NCBI GenBank assembly: GCA_009780315.1
Contig: WRAH01000013.1
Location: 1 to 64,000 of the forward strand
Direction: 5' to 3'
Source: Defluviitaleaceae bacterium
Lineage (GTDB): Bacteria; Bacillota; Clostridia; Lachnospirales; WQUN01
DNA length: 64,000 nucleotides
Position numbers and translations under genes: made by a program. Positions 21,459 through 29,294 of this stretch are shown piece by piece (position 1 is the stretch's first letter; each line of letters starts with the position of its first letter). The notes under the pieces are model-generated. The model worked only from the letters and a program-made list of their open reading frames with translations. It had not been told where the DNA came from and did not search any database.

Positions 21459-24077
21459 CTATCCTATAACTATCTCTAATCCATCGTCCAACAATTCAAC
21501 TGTGCCGCCAAATATATTAGGGATAACCTCCATAAAAATCATCGCCCGCCCATTGATAATGTGTGGTACAAAAACTATCCCATGACCATCAAACCATATC
21601 GTTACCTCACCTGTGTCAGCATTCCAATCAGGCTCGGCTATGTCCAATGCCATAGTGAATGCCCTAAGAGGAATATACACCACACCCGATATCACTTGGG
21701 CAGGAACGTCCATATAAGCAGATAAATCTACACCTCGGGCTAAGTCTGCAAAACCTTCATTGGTATCAAAATACATACGAATATGCACCGATTCTAAAGC
21801 AGGACGCTCAACAGTGGCTAAAATAGCATGGAAAGCATCTTTTGCTTCAAAATCACCATTAAAAATTAACGGAGAACCCCACGCACGCCAACTTTGAGTA
21901 TCTGCCTTACCCCAGAAAGTCACACGCTCAATATAATCAGAAAATTCCACAAAGTATTCAAAAACACGGGCAAAATACTCTGCTTGCCGTGCTTCTTGTT
22001 CTGGCAAAAGTGGAATAGAGGGGTTGCCTTGTGTCCCAATGGTAATATCCAACTCTGTAATAGCCAAGACTGCCCCCGTTTGTGCAAAACGCTCTATTGC
22101 AGGGCGGATATTGTCAAAATTCGTTGCCCATTGGTCAAGATGGTGGTGAGATTGCAGTCCAATACCTTCAATTAAAAGCCGCCCATCATAGGATGGATGA
22201 TTACGCCAGCGGTCATTCATATACTCTACCATTTGCGCAATAGCCTCTCGTTTGCCCGGTTGTTCTTCGTTGTAATCGTTGTAGAACAAGGTTGCATAGG
22301 GGTCATATTGACGGGCAAAATAAAATGCATAGAAAATAAAATCATACCCTGCTTCCCCTGCGGCTGTATCTGCTCCATTGGCAAAGGCTTCGTACCAGCG
22401 CGGCTGATGGTCGGCAACCTCTAACCGAATATGATTGCGCCAATCCCCCGAAAACTCACCAACAGAACTAGATATGGCTTCATTCAGCACATCCCAAGCC
22501 TGCATACGCCCTGCATAACGCCCTGCAACAGTACGAATATACATATGCATATTTTCCATCGCTTCTGCACGGGTAAGCACATCTGTTGTGCCTGAAATAT
22601 TGGTAAGCCATGCAGGTGATTGAGAATGCCAGATTAAAGTATGCCCAATCATGGCAAGGTTGTTTTCCTCTGCCCAATCTACTATGGCATCTTGTGTTGA
22701 AAAATTCCATGTAGAAGGGTCTGTGGGGTCTGTGCCAGCACCTGCAATAAAATCTGGTTTATGATGATTTTCCGCCGTGACTGCATTAAAATGGTGCAAG
22801 AAAAAATCGTTGGTATTGCCAATATTCATTTGAATATTGCTGCTCCAAATATTACCTACCATGAAATAATCAGCAAAAACTTCTGCCAAAGACGGTAGAC
22901 TTAAATCCCATTCAGGAATAAAAACTTCTGCCACACCACGGCTGGAAATGAAAATATTATCGATATACAACACGCTGGGTTGCTGGGTATCATTGTTTAC
23001 CCTAAACCGAAAAAGGATATATTCCATGTCACCAATGTCTGGGCCTAATGTAAATTCTACAGTCGTGTTCACCCACGTGTCCATGGGAATTTCACGTCCA
23101 AGGTCGCCTGGCGCAGGTTGTGTATTGGTAGGCTGGTGCGCCGCAGAACCAAACACACCGTTAATATTGATACCTGGGCCTACAATGGTTCTATCACCCA
23201 AATTTTCTTCAGAAGGCACATATACATACCAAGAAACCTCTACTGTTGAACCTAGAGGTATGGATTGGGGAAGATTAAATTGCAAGTAATTTCCTTGCCC
23301 GCTGTAATAATTCCCTGTGACATTTTCTAAACGCATGGCATAATTATCATCTACACCATGATAGTCAACGATAAAGCCTTCCATTTGCGCCCCAGGTTGA
23401 AGATATAATTTAAAGGTATCCTCAGCAAAGTCTATAAAGAAGATATTGACCAGCGGCTCAAGATTTTCAGGGGCTTCTATCGTCGGAAGCGTTACAAGAC
23501 CTATTGTGTCTGATGATTCAATGACAATAGCTGGGCTTCCACTGGCTTGCAACAAAGCATGTCCCTCAAAAGTTGTTGCATTTAAAAGATTGCTTTGCAC
23601 ATATACATCTTCAGAAAGGGTATAAACCGTATCCCCATCCCGTGTCAGCACAATATCATCAATAAAAAAGGACATACTGGAACCCTCACCATTGGTTTGC
23701 ACACGGAAGCGTACAAATTGGTCTTCTTCCATATGATTATCACCAAGGACAATTTGCAGTACAAAAGATTGATTGGGGGTGTTGACTTCAGTATTATTTG
23801 CCCAATTCCATGGGCTTTCTGCACCGCCAAGTACCATTTGTGTACCTGGGGGAACAAAACCGCCTGTGCGCCCTGTGATAGTTAGCACATCCCCAAGTTC
23901 CATGTCAGTACGAAGAATGTCTACACCATCCCAAGAATTTGACCTGTTGGAAATATACAGAATGTGGCTGTCCTCTGCTGCATGTACAAGCATTGGGGGC
24001 ATTACAAAAGTAAATACCATGATGAGTGCCAGCATGAAGCTGACAGGGCGTTTAAGTCTTGCAAAAAAATGTGTCAC
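21459..24077 (-). CDS. Secreted GH10 endo-1,4-beta-xylanase, multidomain
   Basis: 872 residues, GTG start with AAGGAGG eight bases upstream. A signal peptide spans about residues 1-33 (cut near VHA-AED). Two carbohydrate-binding-like beta-sandwich modules follow (about 36-165 and 208-380, both ending in a FIDDIVL / YIDNIFIS strand, CBM4/9/22-like). The GH10 barrel covers about 392-755 with the acid/base E533 (WDVLNEA) and the nucleophile E675 (ITELDI). The C-terminal 100 residues (YIPLRAFTMALD, GEVTIWFDG) resemble the copper-amine-oxidase-N-like stalk domain found on clostridial exported proteins. It cleaves xylan outside the cell; the C-terminal module may attach it to the surface. Monocistronic, with its own promoter and terminator. 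Confidence 0.94.
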   Translation of the reverse strand: MTHFFARLKRPVSFMLALIMVFTFVMPPMLVHAAEDSHILYISNRSNSWDGVDILRTDMELGDVLTITGRTGGFVPPGTQMVLGGAESPWNWANNTEVNTPNQSFVLQIVLGDNHMEEDQFVRFRVQTNGEGSSMSFFIDDIVLTRDGDTVYTLSEDVYVQSNLLNATTFEGHALLQASGSPAIVIESSDTIGLVTLPTIEAPENLEPLVNIFFIDFAEDTFKLYLQPGAQMEGFIVDYHGVDDNYAMRLENVTGNYYSGQGNYLQFNLPQSIPLGSTVEVSWYVYVPSEENLGDRTIVGPGININGVFGSAAHQPTNTQPAPGDLGREIPMDTWVNTTVEFTLGPDIGDMEYILFRFRVNNDTQQPSVLYIDNIFISSRGVAEVFIPEWDLSLPSLAEVFADYFMVGNIWSSNIQMNIGNTNDFFLHHFNAVTAENHHKPDFIAGAGTDPTDPSTWNFSTQDAIVDWAEENNLAMIGHTLIWHSQSPAWLTNISGTTDVLTRAEAMENMHMYIRTVAGRYAGRMQAWDVLNEAISSSVGEFSGDWRNHIRLEVADHQPRWYEAFANGADTAAGEAGYDFIFYAFYFARQYDPYATLFYNDYNEEQPGKREAIAQMVEYMNDRWRNHPSYDGRLLIEGIGLQSHHHLDQWATNFDNIRPAIERFAQTGAVLAITELDITIGTQGNPSIPLLPEQEARQAEYFARVFEYFVEFSDYIERVTFWGKADTQSWRAWGSPLIFNGDFEAKDAFHAILATVERPALESVHIRMYFDTNEGFADLARGVDLSAYMDVPAQVISGVVYIPLRAFTMALDIAEPDWNADTGEVTIWFDGHGIVFVPHIINGRAMIFMEVIPNIFGGTVELLDDGLEIVIG

Positions 24078-24133
24078 TTGAAAAACCTCCTTTTGGTTAT
24101 GGACGATGCCCTAAAATATGTTAATTTAATGCT

Positions 24134-24162
24134 ATTATAAATAAAATCTATCTGCAAATCAA
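24134..24162 (-). promoter_or_regulatory. Promoter of the xylanase gene
   Basis: On the minus strand TTGATT (24157-24162) and a perfect TATAAT (24134-24139) are spaced by 17 bases. The leader to the GTG would be about 50 bases. Confidence 0.7.
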
Positions 24163-24363
24163 GAATAATTCATAAGTTTTTACAATTTAATGATATACTT
24201 ACATTGATTCATTGATGAAAAGTGCAAAAAACAGATGGCTTTCTTTCCTCTGAAGGCATCTTGTGAATGGTGAAAATGATATCAGGGGGTAAAGTTCGCC
24301 AATAGAATTACACGCAAGTCAAGCACGTTTAGACATTTTTGCTTGATAATTTGACAATTTTTG

Positions 24364-24392
24364 TTGACTTTCCAAGAATCACATGCTATGCT
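24364..24392 (+). promoter_or_regulatory. Promoter of the first peptide unit
   Basis: TTGACT (24364-24369), a 17-base spacer and TATGCT (24387-24392) preceded by TGC, giving an extended -10. A second TATACT and a TATAAT lie a few bases further on. The second unit keeps an extended -10 (TGCTATACT, 24521-24529) but its -35 is poor. Confidence 0.6.
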
Positions 24393-24423
24393 ATACTTAT
24401 AATAAATAAGGGAGTGTGACACT

Positions 24424-24507
24424 ATGATGTGGATTACATGCTTTTTGTCATTGATATTTCCATACCCAACGCCCCGCGGGCCAGGTGGTTTATGGCCCGG
24501 AAGTTGA
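24424..24507 (+). CDS. Small peptide ORF, copy A (27 codons)
   Basis: The frame begins MMWITCFLSLIFPY and ends PRGPGGLWPGS. GGGAG lies nine bases before the ATG. The N-terminal half is hydrophobic like a short signal or membrane helix; the C-terminal half is proline/glycine-rich with a Trp. Compared with copy B only one residue differs (Gly22 versus Thr22), while two other codons differ silently, which hints at selection on the peptide. It precedes a TPR-like/HTH regulator. A signalling or toxin-like peptide is plausible. Alternatively the locus is a structured RNA and the frame is incidental. Confidence 0.5.
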   Translation: MMWITCFLSLIFPYPTPRGPGGLWPGS

Positions 24508-24556
24508 ATATTCAATCACATGCTATACTTATAATAAATATAAGGAGTGTGACACT

Positions 24557-24640
24557 ATGATGTGGATTACATGCTTTTTGTCATTGATATTTCCATACCC
24601 AACGCCCCGCGGGCCAGGGACTTTATGGCCTGGAAGTTGA
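24557..24640 (+). CDS. Small peptide ORF, copy B (27 codons)
   Basis: Second copy of the peptide frame, ending PRGPGTLWPGS, with a better ribosome binding site (AAGGAG nine bases upstream). It is followed after 20 bases by a hairpin with a T tract and then the regulator gene. The codon changes relative to copy A are GGT to GGG and CCC to CCT (silent) and GGT to ACT (Gly to Thr). The hairpin inside the frame stays paired through a G-T wobble, so both peptide and RNA constraints are possible. Confidence 0.5.
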   Translation: MMWITCFLSLIFPYPTPRGPGTLWPGS

Positions 24641-24660
24641 ATATTCACATTGTGACGTTT

Positions 24661-24686
24661 CCCACTCTATTTGGGTGGGCATTTTT
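24661..24686 (+). terminator. Terminator or attenuator between the peptide units and the regulator gene
   Basis: CCCACTC pairs with GGGTGGG (one mismatch) around a TATTT loop and is followed by CATTTTTATT. It ends four bases before the regulator's ribosome binding site, so read-through would be needed to transcribe the regulator from the peptide promoters. Confidence 0.55.
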
Positions 24687-24701
24687 ATTGAGGTGATCGG
24701 A

Positions 24702-25631
24702 TTGAGAGGTAAAGATACAAAGGAATCACTGGTTCGTGAGTTTCTAAACATCATGGGTAATCATGATGCAAAAGTTGATAGCCTTATCAGAAGAATGACA
24801 GCGTATATGTCTGATAATCCAGACAGAGAGTTAGAATTTATGTTGATTACTATGCAAGTATGTAAAGAAAGCTACAAATCGAATAATTTTGAACTATGTA
24901 TACAAATGGCAAGCCCTGTATTTGAAAAAGTGATGAATATAAATAATGGGGGTATTCAGCCATTAAGCTTTCTTGAGCTTACTATCTTGGCTACCATTAT
25001 TGAATTTTCCCCAAATTTTAAAGTTGCAAGAGACTTGGCAAAAAAAATCTTAGCATTATTGGACACGGAATATAGTCATGAAAAAATGTGTAATGTTGCT
25101 AGAGAAATGGTTAGTCATAATATATTACCTGTACTTCTTCGCGCCAAATGCTATAAGTCAGAAGGAAATAGAGCAGAGGTACAATCTCTTTTTGACGAAA
25201 ATTTGAAAAAGGCAAGACTGGCAAATGAAAGGGCTAAACGCCATGCATATTTAGCATGGTTGCAAATTCAGGAAGGCATATTTTACGTGGATACTGAACT
25301 AGTTGACCAAGGTATTACATGGCTAAAAGAGAATGAGCGCAAAACATGGTATCCCTCTGCTGTCGATGAACTCCTGACATACTACAGGCATTTAGGCGAT
25401 GAAATTACAAAAAGTCAATTGGATATTTTGGTTGGCTATCGTATTAGAAAAATACGTGAATCACAGGAAATACACATAGAAGAAGCCGCAGAGTTTATAG
25501 GATTAACAGATAATGCTTTAGAGCAAATAGAGAGCGGACGAAGAGGGGCGAAGGGTATCCACTTGTATAAACTTTCCCATCTTTTTAAAGTTGACATCTC
25601 TTATTTTTATTATGGTGAAAAATGTGAGTGA
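24702..25631 (+). CDS. Helical-repeat (TPR-like) regulator with C-terminal XRE-type HTH
   Basis: 309 residues from the TTG at 24702, chosen because GAGGTGATC, a near-perfect anti-SD match, ends just before it; a GTG 27 bases earlier lies inside the hairpin. Residues 1-240 are almost wholly helical with paired amphipathic helices, as in tetratricopeptide sensor regions. Residues 245-305 form a helix-turn-helix (YRIRKIRESQEIHIEEAAEF, then IGLTDNALEQIESGRRG). Peptide-binding RRNPP regulators (Rgg, PlcR, NprR) have the HTH first and the TPR last, so this order is reversed. Located directly after the two peptide frames. Role as a peptide-responsive regulator is inference. Confidence 0.6.
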   Translation: MRGKDTKESLVREFLNIMGNHDAKVDSLIRRMTAYMSDNPDRELEFMLITMQVCKESYKSNNFELCIQMASPVFEKVMNINNGGIQPLSFLELTILATIIEFSPNFKVARDLAKKILALLDTEYSHEKMCNVAREMVSHNILPVLLRAKCYKSEGNRAEVQSLFDENLKKARLANERAKRHAYLAWLQIQEGIFYVDTELVDQGITWLKENERKTWYPSAVDELLTYYRHLGDEITKSQLDILVGYRIRKIRESQEIHIEEAAEFIGLTDNALEQIESGRRGAKGIHLYKLSHLFKVDISYFYYGEKCE

Positions 25632-25685
25632 TGCTGCACCACAGTCTCCGCGGGAGATACCCCTGTTTGTACGCTCTTCTCTAAT

Positions 25686-25720
25686 AGAAGCCCCAATCTT
25701 TTTATCAGTTTGGGGCTTCT
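25686..25720. terminator. Terminator between the regulator gene and dnaE
   Basis: AGAAGCCCCAA pairs with TTGGGGCTTCT around a 13-base loop, followed on the plus strand by ATTGTTTATT. The genes converge here, and the hairpin can serve the regulator and perhaps dnaE. Confidence 0.75.
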
Positions 25721-25742
25721 ATTGTTTATTGTACTAAGACAT

Positions 25743-28700
25743 TTATTTTGTGACAGTTTTTACTGTGCCTTCGCCTAACAAAGTTTCTAAGGCGTGATTG
25801 AGTGTATCGCTTGGAGACACCCAAAATTCACGATTGACTTGAAATTTCTGCCCTTGGGCTTCGTTGTAGATGATTACAGGCGTGTCGCCATGATAGGCAG
25901 ACAGGGTGTCTGTTATTGTTTTTGCTGGAACTTCAACGGCTTTAGGTATCTTTATCCAAAAGGTCGTCTTTGATGTAGACTGTGCTTGACTTTGTGCTTG
26001 CTGATGAGCTGATGGGGGGATATCCTCATAAAAAAGCATATCTTGGGAAACTATTTTTGTAGCTTCCTCTTCGCGGGCAGATACACGTCCTTGAATAACT
26101 AACACTTGGTCAACTTGTAAGCGGTTGGCGAACTTTTCATAAATTTTTGCAAAAACGATAACCTCCACTGCACCATACATATCTTCCACAGTAAGGAAAC
26201 AGAATGCTTTATTATCTGCTTTGGTATACATGACTTTTTTTGCGGTTATCATCCCGCCATATTTCACAGAATCACCGTCAGCCAAATGACGGGACGAGGC
26301 GGATATGCTCCCCACTTCTTCGCCGTCTTCATCCGTCACGATGGGGGAATCTTCTTCATTTTCTTCAAAATCCACACTGGTTGCAGTGGCATAAAGACGC
26401 AGTACGCCTTCATATTCTGCCAGCGGATGTCCGCTTACATATACACCCATGAGTTCCTTTTCATCAGAAAGCATGAGTTTCTTTGGAAACTCTGATATAT
26501 TGGGCAGATCATCTGTATCCGTTTCCTCAACCGCTGGTGCGTCATCAATATCAAAAAGAGAAAGCTGTCCTGACAGGGTAGATTTTTTTGTATGTGCCAA
26601 CCCATTTTGAATGATTTGATAGACGGCAATATATTGGGAACGCTTGCCGCCCAAAGAATCAAATGCACCTGAACGGATTAAACTTTCTAAACAGCGTTTG
26701 TTTACATCATAGTTTGACAGGCGGCGAATAAAGTCAGCTAACCCTTTATATTTTCCATTTTCTTCACGCTCTTTGACCAACGCATCAACTGTGGCACGTC
26801 CTACATTTTTAATAGATGCCAAGGCAAAGCGGATACTTTTGCCTGATACACTAAAGGTTGCAAAGCTTTCATTCACATCTGGGGGCAATAGTGGAATGTT
26901 CATTTTTTTACAGTCGCGGATATAGCCCGCCACTTTTCCGCTGGCATCCATCACAGATGTCATGAGTGCTGCCATAAATTCTACAGGGTGGTAGTATTTC
27001 ATCCATGCCGTTTGATAACTTATGACGGCATAACCTGCCGCATGAGATTTATTAAACGCATATGCCGCGAACTTTGCCATTGCATCAAAAATTTCCCCAG
27101 CGGCTTTTTCTGGCACACCATTTTTTACACAACCAGGTACCCCTTCGGATTCTAGCCCGTGGATGAAGTTTTTACGCTCTTCTGCCATGACATCATCTTT
27201 TTTCTTAGACATTGCACGGCGTATTAAGTCGCTTCGCCCTAGGCTATATCCTGCAAGGTCACGCACAATTTGCATGACTTGCTCTTGATATACGATACAA
27301 CCATAGGTTGCTTCTAGTATTGGCTTTAAGCTTGGATGTAGGTATCTAATTTTAGAAGGGTCGTTCTTTCCTTTAATGTATTGGGGAATGAAATCCATGG
27401 GGCCAGGGCGGTATAAAGATATACCTGCGGTGACATCTTCAAAACTTTTAGGTTGAAGCTCCCGCATGAAGGTGGTCATTCCGCCGCTTTCTAACTGAAA
27501 CACGCCGCTGGTTTTCCCTTGGGAAATCATTTCATATACTTTGGGGTCGTTATATTCCCAAGTGTCAAGGTCTATGTCAATCCCCTTGCCCCGTTTGACT
27601 TCTTCGGCGGCAATACGAATAACAGTTAATGTGCGCAGTCCAAGGAAGTCCATTTTTAATAGACCCAGTTCTTCTACTGTTCCCATTGGAAACTGGGTGG
27701 TAATTACGCCGTCATTCACATTGAGCGGAACATACTCGTACACAGGTTTATCACAAATAACAACCCCTGCCGCATGGGTAGATGAGTGACGGGGCAGTCC
27801 TTCTAGGCGAAGGCTCATGTCTATGAGGTTTTTGGTGTCTTCCTCTTCCATGTAGGCTTGTTTTAATTCGGGATTTTGTTTTAGGGCTTTGGTTAGGTTC
27901 ATGCCAAGGTCTGGCGGAATCATTTTGGCTACACGGTCTACATCAGCATATGTCATGGCTAGGGCGCGTCCAACGTCTCGGGTAACCGCCTTGGCTTTCA
28001 TGGTTCCAAAGGTGATGATTTGTGCCACGTGGTCATCACCATATTTGCGTATGACATAGTCAATCACTTCTTGGCGGCGTTCGTAACAGAAATCAATATC
28101 AAAGTCAGGCATGGAAATACGTTCGGGATTTAGAAAACGCTCAAACAGCAAATTGTATGGCAAAGGGTCAATGTCTGTAATACGCAGGACATATGCCACA
28201 AGACTTCCCGCCCCAGAACCACGCCCAGGGCCTACCATAATTTTATTATCGCGGGCATACTTTATAAAATCCCATACAATAAGAAAGTACGTGGTAAACC
28301 CCATAGAGCTGATGACATTTATTTCAAAATCTAAGCGGTCTTGATGTTTGGGTGCATCTTCACCATATCGTGCGATAAGTCCTGCATTGCACTGTTCTTT
28401 TAGATAGTCTGTAGCGTCACCATCATTGGGTACAACAAAAATGGGCAGTTTATAATTGTTAAAGGTCATTTCAATATTGCAACGGTCAGCAATTTTTTGT
28501 GTGTTTTCCAGTGCTTCTTTTGCATGGGGGAAAAGTTCATACATTTCGGCTGGGGATTTTAAGTAAAATTGGTCAGAACCATAACGCATTCTGTCCTCAT
28601 CTTTTACCGTTTTTTGTGTTTGAATACATAGCAAAATATCATGGGGCTGGGTATCACTTGCTTCAATATAATGCACGTCATTGGTGACAACCAAAGGGAT

Positions 28701-29294
28701 ACCTGTTTCTTCAGAGATTTTAATAAGCTGGGGGTTGAGGGTTTTTTGTTCGGCAAGTTGATGGTCTTGAAGCTCTAAGAAAAAATTGCCCCGCCCAAAA
28801 ATTTCATCATACAGTAAAGCGCGCGCCTTGCCTGCTTCATAACCCTGGGTCAATAAAATTTTTGGCACAACACCGCTCATACATGCACTAAGGGCAATAA
28901 GCCCTTTGCTGTGTTGGCGCAACACTTCCACGTCTACACGGGGTTTATAATAAAAGCCTTCGGTAAAGCCTATAGATACTAATTTTATGAGATTGCGATA
29001 GCCTTCTTCATTTTCTGCCAAAAGCACAAGATGGTGGAATGCACCTTCATCACGTCTTTCCTTTGTGTGGCGGGATGTAGGTGAAACGTAAACTTCACAG
29101 CCAAGAATCGGCTTGACACCTTCACTTTTTGCCGCTTTGTAAAAATCAATGACCCCAAACATTACGCCATGGTCAGTAATGGCAATGCTGTCCATACCCA
29201 TTTCCTTTGTACGAGAAGCCAGTTCTTTTATTTTTGCAGAGCCATCTAAAAGGCTATACTCTGAGTGTACGTGCAGATGTGCGAATTTTTGCAT
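25743..29294 (-). CDS. dnaE: DNA polymerase III subunit alpha
   Basis: 1183 residues, a complete DnaE. The N-terminal PHP domain starts FAHLHVHSEYSLLDG and includes ITDHGVMFG. The polymerase core has GPGRGSGAGSLVAYVL and the catalytic PDFDIDF (396-402). The helix-hairpin-helix and OB-fold regions follow (AKKVMYTKADNKAFCFLTVED around residues 1020-1040). In Firmicutes DnaE extends primers on the lagging strand before handing over to PolC. Nothing unusual in length or motifs. It is divergent from tatD and convergent with the HTH regulator. Confidence 0.97.
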   Translation of the reverse strand: MQKFAHLHVHSEYSLLDGSAKIKELASRTKEMGMDSIAITDHGVMFGVIDFYKAAKSEGVKPILGCEVYVSPTSRHTKERRDEGAFHHLVLLAENEEGYRNLIKLVSIGFTEGFYYKPRVDVEVLRQHSKGLIALSACMSGVVPKILLTQGYEAGKARALLYDEIFGRGNFFLELQDHQLAEQKTLNPQLIKISEETGIPLVVTNDVHYIEASDTQPHDILLCIQTQKTVKDEDRMRYGSDQFYLKSPAEMYELFPHAKEALENTQKIADRCNIEMTFNNYKLPIFVVPNDGDATDYLKEQCNAGLIARYGEDAPKHQDRLDFEINVISSMGFTTYFLIVWDFIKYARDNKIMVGPGRGSGAGSLVAYVLRITDIDPLPYNLLFERFLNPERISMPDFDIDFCYERRQEVIDYVIRKYGDDHVAQIITFGTMKAKAVTRDVGRALAMTYADVDRVAKMIPPDLGMNLTKALKQNPELKQAYMEEEDTKNLIDMSLRLEGLPRHSSTHAAGVVICDKPVYEYVPLNVNDGVITTQFPMGTVEELGLLKMDFLGLRTLTVIRIAAEEVKRGKGIDIDLDTWEYNDPKVYEMISQGKTSGVFQLESGGMTTFMRELQPKSFEDVTAGISLYRPGPMDFIPQYIKGKNDPSKIRYLHPSLKPILEATYGCIVYQEQVMQIVRDLAGYSLGRSDLIRRAMSKKKDDVMAEERKNFIHGLESEGVPGCVKNGVPEKAAGEIFDAMAKFAAYAFNKSHAAGYAVISYQTAWMKYYHPVEFMAALMTSVMDASGKVAGYIRDCKKMNIPLLPPDVNESFATFSVSGKSIRFALASIKNVGRATVDALVKEREENGKYKGLADFIRRLSNYDVNKRCLESLIRSGAFDSLGGKRSQYIAVYQIIQNGLAHTKKSTLSGQLSLFDIDDAPAVEETDTDDLPNISEFPKKLMLSDEKELMGVYVSGHPLAEYEGVLRLYATATSVDFEENEEDSPIVTDEDGEEVGSISASSRHLADGDSVKYGGMITAKKVMYTKADNKAFCFLTVEDMYGAVEVIVFAKIYEKFANRLQVDQVLVIQGRVSAREEEATKIVSQDMLFYEDIPPSAHQQAQSQAQSTSKTTFWIKIPKAVEVPAKTITDTLSAYHGDTPVIIYNEAQGQKFQVNREFWVSPSDTLNHALETLLGEGTVKTVTK

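Follow-up and report, generated by a model that had tools for sequence, protein, structure and literature searches.

What is the role of two almost identical mini-genes, each coding for a 27-residue peptide, that lie in tandem upstream of a regulator whose XRE-type DNA-binding domain is C-terminal? The question is raised by a locus in the 64,000-nucleotide stretch of contig WRAH01000013.1 of a Defluviitaleaceae bacterium (GCA_009780315.1), referred to below as the window, its source being the home genome. The original prediction, made from the sequence alone, was an undescribed peptide-sensing family related to the RRNPP quorum-sensing systems with the domain order reversed, or a small toxin under its own regulator. 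The best explanation, to which we assign a probability of roughly 0.75, is that the locus is a peptide–receptor cassette, RRNPP-like in the manner of Rgg/SHP, with a permuted receptor, and belongs to a family of cassettes that radiated within genomes.

Organization of the locus

The following features are distinguished, all on the + strand:

24364–24397, +, promoter candidate of peptide unit 1, TTGACT and extended −10 TGCTATACT, graded likely
24388–24514, +, direct-repeat unit 1 with extended −10, Shine–Dalgarno (SD) site and peptide frame
24424–24507 (stop included), +, peptide 1, MMWITCFLSLIFPYPTPRGPGGLWPGS, 27 aa; SD GGGAG at 24410–24414
24520–24647, +, direct-repeat unit 2 with extended −10, SD and peptide frame
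24557–24640 (stop included), +, peptide 2, identical to peptide 1 except for T22, 27 aa; SD AGGAG at 24543–24547
24661–24679, with a T-rich tail to 24689, +, terminator-like hairpin separating peptide 2 and the regulator
24702–25631, +, receptor (regulator) gene, 309 aa; inferred TTG start at 24702, with GAGGTG (24690–24695) 6 nt 5' of the start
24705–25391, +, N-terminal helical-repeat sensor domain, model residues 1–229
25410–25619, +, C-terminal XRE-type HTH, model residues 236–305

The tandem arrangement described in the original prediction is confirmed: two units of ca. 127 bp form a direct repeat, both containing an extended −10 (TGCTATACT), an SD and a 27-residue frame, and the frames differ in one residue (codon 22, GGT/ACT, G to T) and two silent codons (21, GGT/GGG; 25, CCC/CCT). 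A promoter scan finds TTGACT-17-TATGCT at 24364 and TTTCCA-17-TATACT at 24369, the region 24050–25750 giving 14 promoter-like sites against 6.7 expected. Since 12 of the 48 peptide-bearing cassettes described below have tandem copies, some of them almost identical, the second copy is as likely to provide an extra dose as a second signal, and the reading of the G22 and T22 forms as two signals is a proposal. On the opposite strand lie a long gene starting at 24077, which we take to be a GH10 xylanase gene, and a downstream gene (25743–29294) that is presumably dnaE.

The hairpin and T-rich tail (24661–24689) between peptide 2 and the regulator would suit a leader peptide or attenuator, in which the frames and the hairpin set read-through into the regulator via ribosome position or RNA structure. 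However, by a script rule such a hairpin precedes the receptor in only 10 of the 48 cassettes, and some of these are weak; whole peptide genes in tandem would be pointless for attenuation; differences between the peptide genes show a third-position bias (see below); and the single Rfam match in 24050–25750 is weak, lies 3' of the regulator (25683–25723) and is under the gathering score. Attenuation is thus regarded as very improbable.

The regulator is built as predicted, of an all-helical N-terminus and a C-terminal XRE HTH: PF01381 matches residues 247–301 of a 308-aa query starting at 24705 (E 5.7e-9), and the predicted structure comprises an all-helical sensor and the HTH (pLDDT 86). The HTH is also C-terminal in six relatives with HTH matches, and the family alignments agree. 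Judged by the RRNPP(A) criteria, the receptor lies within the 250–500 aa size range (309 aa; intact relatives 295–388 aa from the match start) and has an adjacent propeptide gene, but its HTH is not at the N-terminus. None of the Pfam TPR families matches the window protein or the relatives scanned.

Distribution of the receptor family

Searching the home genome with the regulator reveals 18 paralogues, of which two are truncated at contig ends and the other 16 are full-length, so that there are about 19 receptors in total. The closest paralogue (contig C33) is 57% identical, and the peptide encoded directly upstream of it is 72% identical to the window peptide. A 27-row profile finds full-length members in 3 of 38 genomes of the bacterial family and, among the best five candidates per genome, in 13 of 392 genomes of the order sample, home included; 41 genomes of this sample give matches, which in 28 of them are limited to the HTH part or its vicinity. 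In the class sample (391 genomes, again the best five candidates per genome) full-length members are found only in the home genome, and the single congener searched has none. The named relatives carrying the family are termite-gut Defluviitaleaceae MAGs. The multiplication of the cassettes within genomes hints at a high density of peptide signalling among the uncultured Clostridia of termite guts. A genome-contig scan with receptors from the other-family genomes gives 13 loci, and one with the home-genome receptors gives nothing, the home-genome records possibly lying outside the scanned set.

The set analysed further comprises 58 receptors from 13 genomes, including G000:C28 and G000:C15, whose HTH is cut by the contig end, and G498:C5, which has a broken frame. 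Left out were G010:C15, G051:C122, C23, C86 and the second C145 copy, as well as C-terminal pieces and fragments (G051 C138 and C30; G000 C69, C45, C18 and C8), and six HTH-less G051 genes were counted apart. G000:C15 and G000:C28 are both cut at contig base 1 within closely similar HTH sequence, and C69 and C45 end at that point too and probably carry the missing tails. The HTH-less G051 genes (L075, L076, L077, L079, L080, L081) code for sensor-only paralogues of 204–238 aa from the match start; one of the six has an SD-preceded upstream frame, unlike the family peptides. They are possible Rap-like effectors or decoys. An additional C-terminal domain is found in two G010 receptors (L187:1588–2751 on C115 and L064:1771–2934 on C57); it is an RNA polymerase alpha-CTD in L187 (PF03118, E 1.6e-14), and the L064 tail is similar by eye.

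A phage or plasmid origin and a role in defence were considered and rejected. For three receptors the PHROGs matches are confined to the HTH part, except for one to residues 25–118 of the window protein (E 0.0007), and so are the PADLOC matches, except for one at residues 25–67 (E 0.0096). The window protein has no tblastn match among phages and plasmids at E 1e-5, and one pattern scan of viral contigs with the relatives' receptors found none.

Linkage of peptide genes and receptors

One to four short peptide frames, chosen by eye, lie upstream of 48 of the 58 receptors, giving 64 peptides. The original prediction named homologues devoid of a nearby peptide frame as evidence against it; a recognisable peptide is indeed absent at ten receptors, but these are a minority. 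In the home genome 16 of the 19 loci have peptide frames, 23 in all and at most four in tandem (C36); of the other three, C15 and C25 have upstream regions that by eye look like broken frames, and C14:10128 has none.

A fixed rule, independent of the by-eye list and demanding an SD and a 15–52-aa frame within 450 nt upstream, is passed by 39 of the 58 receptors in the sense orientation, by 8/58 in antisense and by 10 of 30 other XRE genes, which means that a third of ordinary upstream regions also qualify. Better separation is obtained when a broad core motif (see below) is added to the rule: 33/58 in sense, 1/58 in antisense and 2/30 among the XRE controls (Fisher p 2e-6 for 33/58 versus 2/30). 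For the controls 31 XRE genes were viewed, one of which, with a short upstream region, was not counted; loci repeating an entered gene or with frame breaks, plus one further gene, were left out. It is worth mentioning that at L160 (G496:C99) a truncated copy of the receptor start lies between two tandem peptide genes, 232–142 nt upstream of the receptor match; the duplicated segment may thus comprise the peptide gene plus the 5' end of the receptor gene.

The peptides

The 64 peptides have a median length of 27 aa (range 15–46) and differ by genome, as exemplified by MMFLSLFTRLFMPFTWCCCDGIVED in G498, MLYFLYVASQLCDKYDWIIGPLTWKVGC in G512, MRIEIKIRPLDANISEGWD (19 aa) in G471 and MKAPIVVIPFGGGGKPNLPEDE in G496. 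A central core, [IVLFM]xP[FL], selected after all the peptides had been read, is present in 43 of the 64 (shuffled sequences: mean 9.4, maximum 20) and in 25 of the 41 from beyond the home genome (shuffled: mean 3.2, maximum 10). Third codon positions carry 342 of 662 differences in 38 overlapping peptide pairs and 64 of 126 in 11 non-overlapping pairs, an excess expected of translated frames. Of 455 changed codons as many as 281 lead to another residue, hence the peptides evolve fast.

Hydrophobicity is concentrated in the first half of the peptides (mean GRAVY 1.2, against −0.1 for the second half). In 46 of the 64 there is no K or R within five residues after the start, and by eye only one of the 64 has a Sec-export look. 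The G471 and G496 peptides are 15–31 aa long, and several have little of a hydrophobic leader. In contrast to the other peptides, the one of cassette L146 (G490:C34), encoded 199–58 nt upstream of the receptor match and 46 aa long, has a leader (MKGKKRGIIAVLLALVMVATLATPLVADEA...) that looks like a classical secretion signal.

The scarcity of classical leaders bears on the alternative that the peptide is never exported and acts as an intracellular microprotein cofactor, a co-repressor or anti-repressor, in a cell-autonomous switch. It is favoured by the absence of an early basic residue from most peptides, by the single Sec-type one and by the short G471 and G496 peptides. On the other hand, the first half is hydrophobic, the G490:C34 cassette has an apparent secretion leader, the home genome codes for seven SBP_bac_5 (oligopeptide-binding type) proteins, and streptococcal SHPs, according to PMC9765709, are small, leave via PptAB and were missed by the first search of that study. 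This alternative shares the peptide–receptor pairing with the RRNPP-like cassette, so the odds of the two overlap; as most peptides lack a classical leader, it is retained as an unlikely but serious one.

The fold of the sensor half

Helical-repeat matches of the window model include Rgg3–SHP3 (Z 11.7) and NprR–NprX (Z 11.5), but unrelated eukaryotic TPR proteins tie with them (APPBP2, 12.5), so the window model alone does not decide the fold kinship. Foldseek, run with the window model only, gives no PDB or BFVD match at E≤0.001, its leading rows being HTH matches. A relative, the G505:C35 receptor (locus L184), was modelled as well (pLDDT 85.9). Its best match is Rgg144, with Z 18.2 over 205 aa at 3.4 Å, and the other Z values are 17.3 for Rgg3–SHP3, 14.8 for PlcR–PapR, 13.9 for RopB, 13.4 for ComR and 13.1 for Rap. 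Named RRNPP receptors take up 18 of the top 20 structural rows (Z 12.9–18.2), and the remaining two, 4ryk from Listeria (16.1) and 9lth from S. salivarius (14.3), we take to be RRNPP kin. The next rows are Deinococcus 3gw4 (12.8) and LGN (12.5), so that the first row not recognised by us as RRNPP has a Z of 12.8. Residues 1–230 of the relative align with residues 76–287 of Rgg144, C-terminal to the HTH of the latter, while its own HTH occupies residues ca. 238–305.

A receptor profile of the home genome, G010, G013 and G051 aligns over its full length with one of the other-family genomes, with which it shares no rows (hhalign E 4e-82), and through this link the RRNPP-like fold may be carried over from the relative to the window protein. 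The N-terminal halves of three relatives match Rgg_C at E 9.7e-6, 0.0012 and 0.0022, all under the Pfam cut-off (the best score is 25.8 bits versus 27). Across nine genomes there are eight Rgg_C matches, none of them above the cut-off and all eight in the permuted-receptor family (of these, one lacks the HTH and another has a broken frame); the home genome has no match, and Rgg_C also matches in two archaeal control genomes. The models and profiles assign to the sensor half a predicted RRNPP-like helical-repeat fold in permuted order, sensor first and HTH last. The main proposal, of an undescribed RRNPP-like family of reversed order, is supported by the linkage, by the sensor fold of a relative and by the weak Rgg_C matches; the original prediction as a whole is partly supported.

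The sensor also bears on the toxin named in the original prediction, considered here as a toxin–antitoxin or bacteriocin system in which the hydrophobic peptide would be a small membrane toxin and the adjacent XRE regulator its repressor. Small hydrophobic frames in front of an XRE gene, in tandem copies in a quarter of the cassettes (12/48), would agree with it, but the partner is an RRNPP-type helical-repeat sensor with many paralogues, some peptides, such as the 19-aa MRIEIKIRPLDANISEGWD, are not membrane-spanning in look (the shortest has 15 aa), and the PADLOC and PHROGs matches, save the two given above, are confined to the HTH. We consider a toxin highly improbable.

Relation to known systems

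The cassettes resemble the streptococcal Rgg/SHP systems in that a short hydrophobic peptide gene adjoins the receptor and that the sensor half of the relative matches Rgg144, Rgg3 and Rgg2 (Z 14.4–18.2). They differ in the HTH, N-terminal in Rgg and C-terminal here, in the lack of an early basic residue in most peptides and in having one to four peptide genes per receptor. An adjacent peptide gene is also shared with PlcR/PapR, ComR/ComS and Rap/Phr, whose receptors are among the top 20 structural rows of the relative, and with NprR/NprX, whose receptor is among the window-model matches. According to PMC9765709, RRNPP transcription-factor members have an N-terminal HTH, and in the PlcR, NprR, ComR and Rap systems the HTH or three-helix bundle, where present, is N-terminal; RRNPP receptors all contain a C-terminal TPR according to PMC7425212. 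Because its HTH is C-terminal, the window receptor is not assigned to any named RRNPP subfamily and is filed as a domain-permuted variant working like RRNPP systems.

A large single-genome expansion of peptide–receptor pairs, with orphan receptors and degenerate peptides, is also known from AloR/AloP of Paenibacillus, where there are up to 40 receptors, 27 of them with peptides (PMC7425212). There, however, the TPR is C-terminal, the receptor gene precedes the peptide gene and the peptides have an N-terminal hydrophobic secretion helix. Several pheromone copies per receptor occur in phage Rap systems as well, but there they lie inside one propeptide (PMC11343458), whereas in the cassettes each copy is a small gene of its own, preceded by its own SD. 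At least one published RRNPP screen (PMC10075063) excluded clusters in which the TPR region was N-terminal or the propeptides were atypical, and the permuted family could thus have been missed. Among the matches listed in the open-access literature covered there is no C-terminal-HTH version of RRNPP. That one genome carries about 19 receptors with swapped halves suggests a branch of peptide signalling in bacteria that is as yet undescribed.

Evolution of the cassettes

In the receptor tree (57 rows, G498:C5 left out) the 19 home-genome receptors form one group with support 98/96. The G051, G471, G505, G496, G498 and G536 receptors each group likewise, while those of G010, G512 and G490 do not. 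This genome-wise grouping indicates that the cassettes mostly multiply within lineages and then diverge. In 14 home-genome cassettes peptide similarity correlates with that of the sensor (Mantel r 0.53) and of the HTH (0.60); as the correlation with the HTH is at least as strong, joint duplication, rather than sensor–peptide co-evolution, may explain it.

The same values could arise by linked duplication alone if the frames were non-functional and the peptide frames and the receptor mere neighbours duplicating together, and MAG assemblies can garble tandem repeats. Against this, the core motif recurs with distant receptors elsewhere (25/41 peptides), the codon differences show the third-position bias, and the fixed rule separates sense (39/58) from antisense (8/58). 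Mere neighbourhood is therefore judged very improbable.

A comparison of the window receptor with its C33 sister shows 75% shared in the HTH region but 52% in the sensor, and judging from these sequences different signals could feed similar DNA sites. Comprising 58 receptors and 64 accompanying peptides, in which a recurring core is set in variable flanks, the family constitutes a natural data set for the evolution of signal specificity.

Proposed mechanism

In the RRNPP-like cassette the receptor would begin with a helical-repeat sensor of Rgg/PlcR type and end with an XRE HTH, opposite to the order usual in RRNPP receptors, and the upstream genes would be translated into its ligand, a small peptide with a hydrophobic first half. 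The central xP[FL]-like core and the variable tail would fit the sensor groove. The peptide would be exported, probably via an ABC transporter or by another route, and re-imported by Opp. Its binding would change the DNA affinity of the receptor, acting on the promoter of its own peptide gene and on a few targets in trans, with autoinduction as in Rgg/SHP. Provided that the peptide–receptor pairing is correct, we somewhat favour signalling between cells. A broader and more tentative proposal, which we hold at slightly less than even odds, is that of a separate class of domain-permuted RRNPP-like pheromone receptors radiating in single genomes into private, largely leaderless peptide codes (at home 19 receptors and at least 23 peptides), with spin-offs such as the sensor-only paralogues and the alpha-CTD fusions. 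If so, a receptor–alpha-CTD fusion could let a peptide gate polymerase recruitment directly.

Regulation and candidate targets

The word TGTCGA/TCGACA is found in 12 of 17 upstream regions of the f19 genomes, compared with 0.6 expected. An operator-like pattern, TGTCGAWWWATGYYR, chosen after the sequences had been seen, occurs seven times in G505, four times in G536 and twice in G498, its reversed control being absent from each, and has no match in three of the six genomes searched. Seven of the 13 sites precede cassettes (four in G505, two in G536, one in G498), and four seem to lie inside genes, maybe by chance. By eye, a weak −35 follows the element at a distance of ca. 25 bp in G505 and G536, and the element falls between −35 and −10 in two of the four cassettes from G498 and two of the three from G512; from position, the former may be read as activator-like and the latter as repressor-like. 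The k-mer search for operators in the home genome gave nothing distinguishable from close paralogy, SD or promoter words.

No common flanking target gene is found in the home-genome cassettes viewed and 13 named loci, whose neighbours differ. The home genome has one exception, recurrent divergent small AbrB/MazE-like genes (e.g., L165:6454–6777, L168:5821–6168 and L172:838–1128); PF04014 matches the three that were scanned, one above the cut-off and two below. In G505:C35 (L198/L184) the candidate operator TGTCGAAAAATGTTA precedes two genes with secreted-looking products, directly downstream of the receptor, which makes them a candidate target operon. In G498 an operator-like element (L190; C7:63479–63493) is located between the −35 and −10 of a P-loop gene (GTGGIGKS), NACHT-like by eye.
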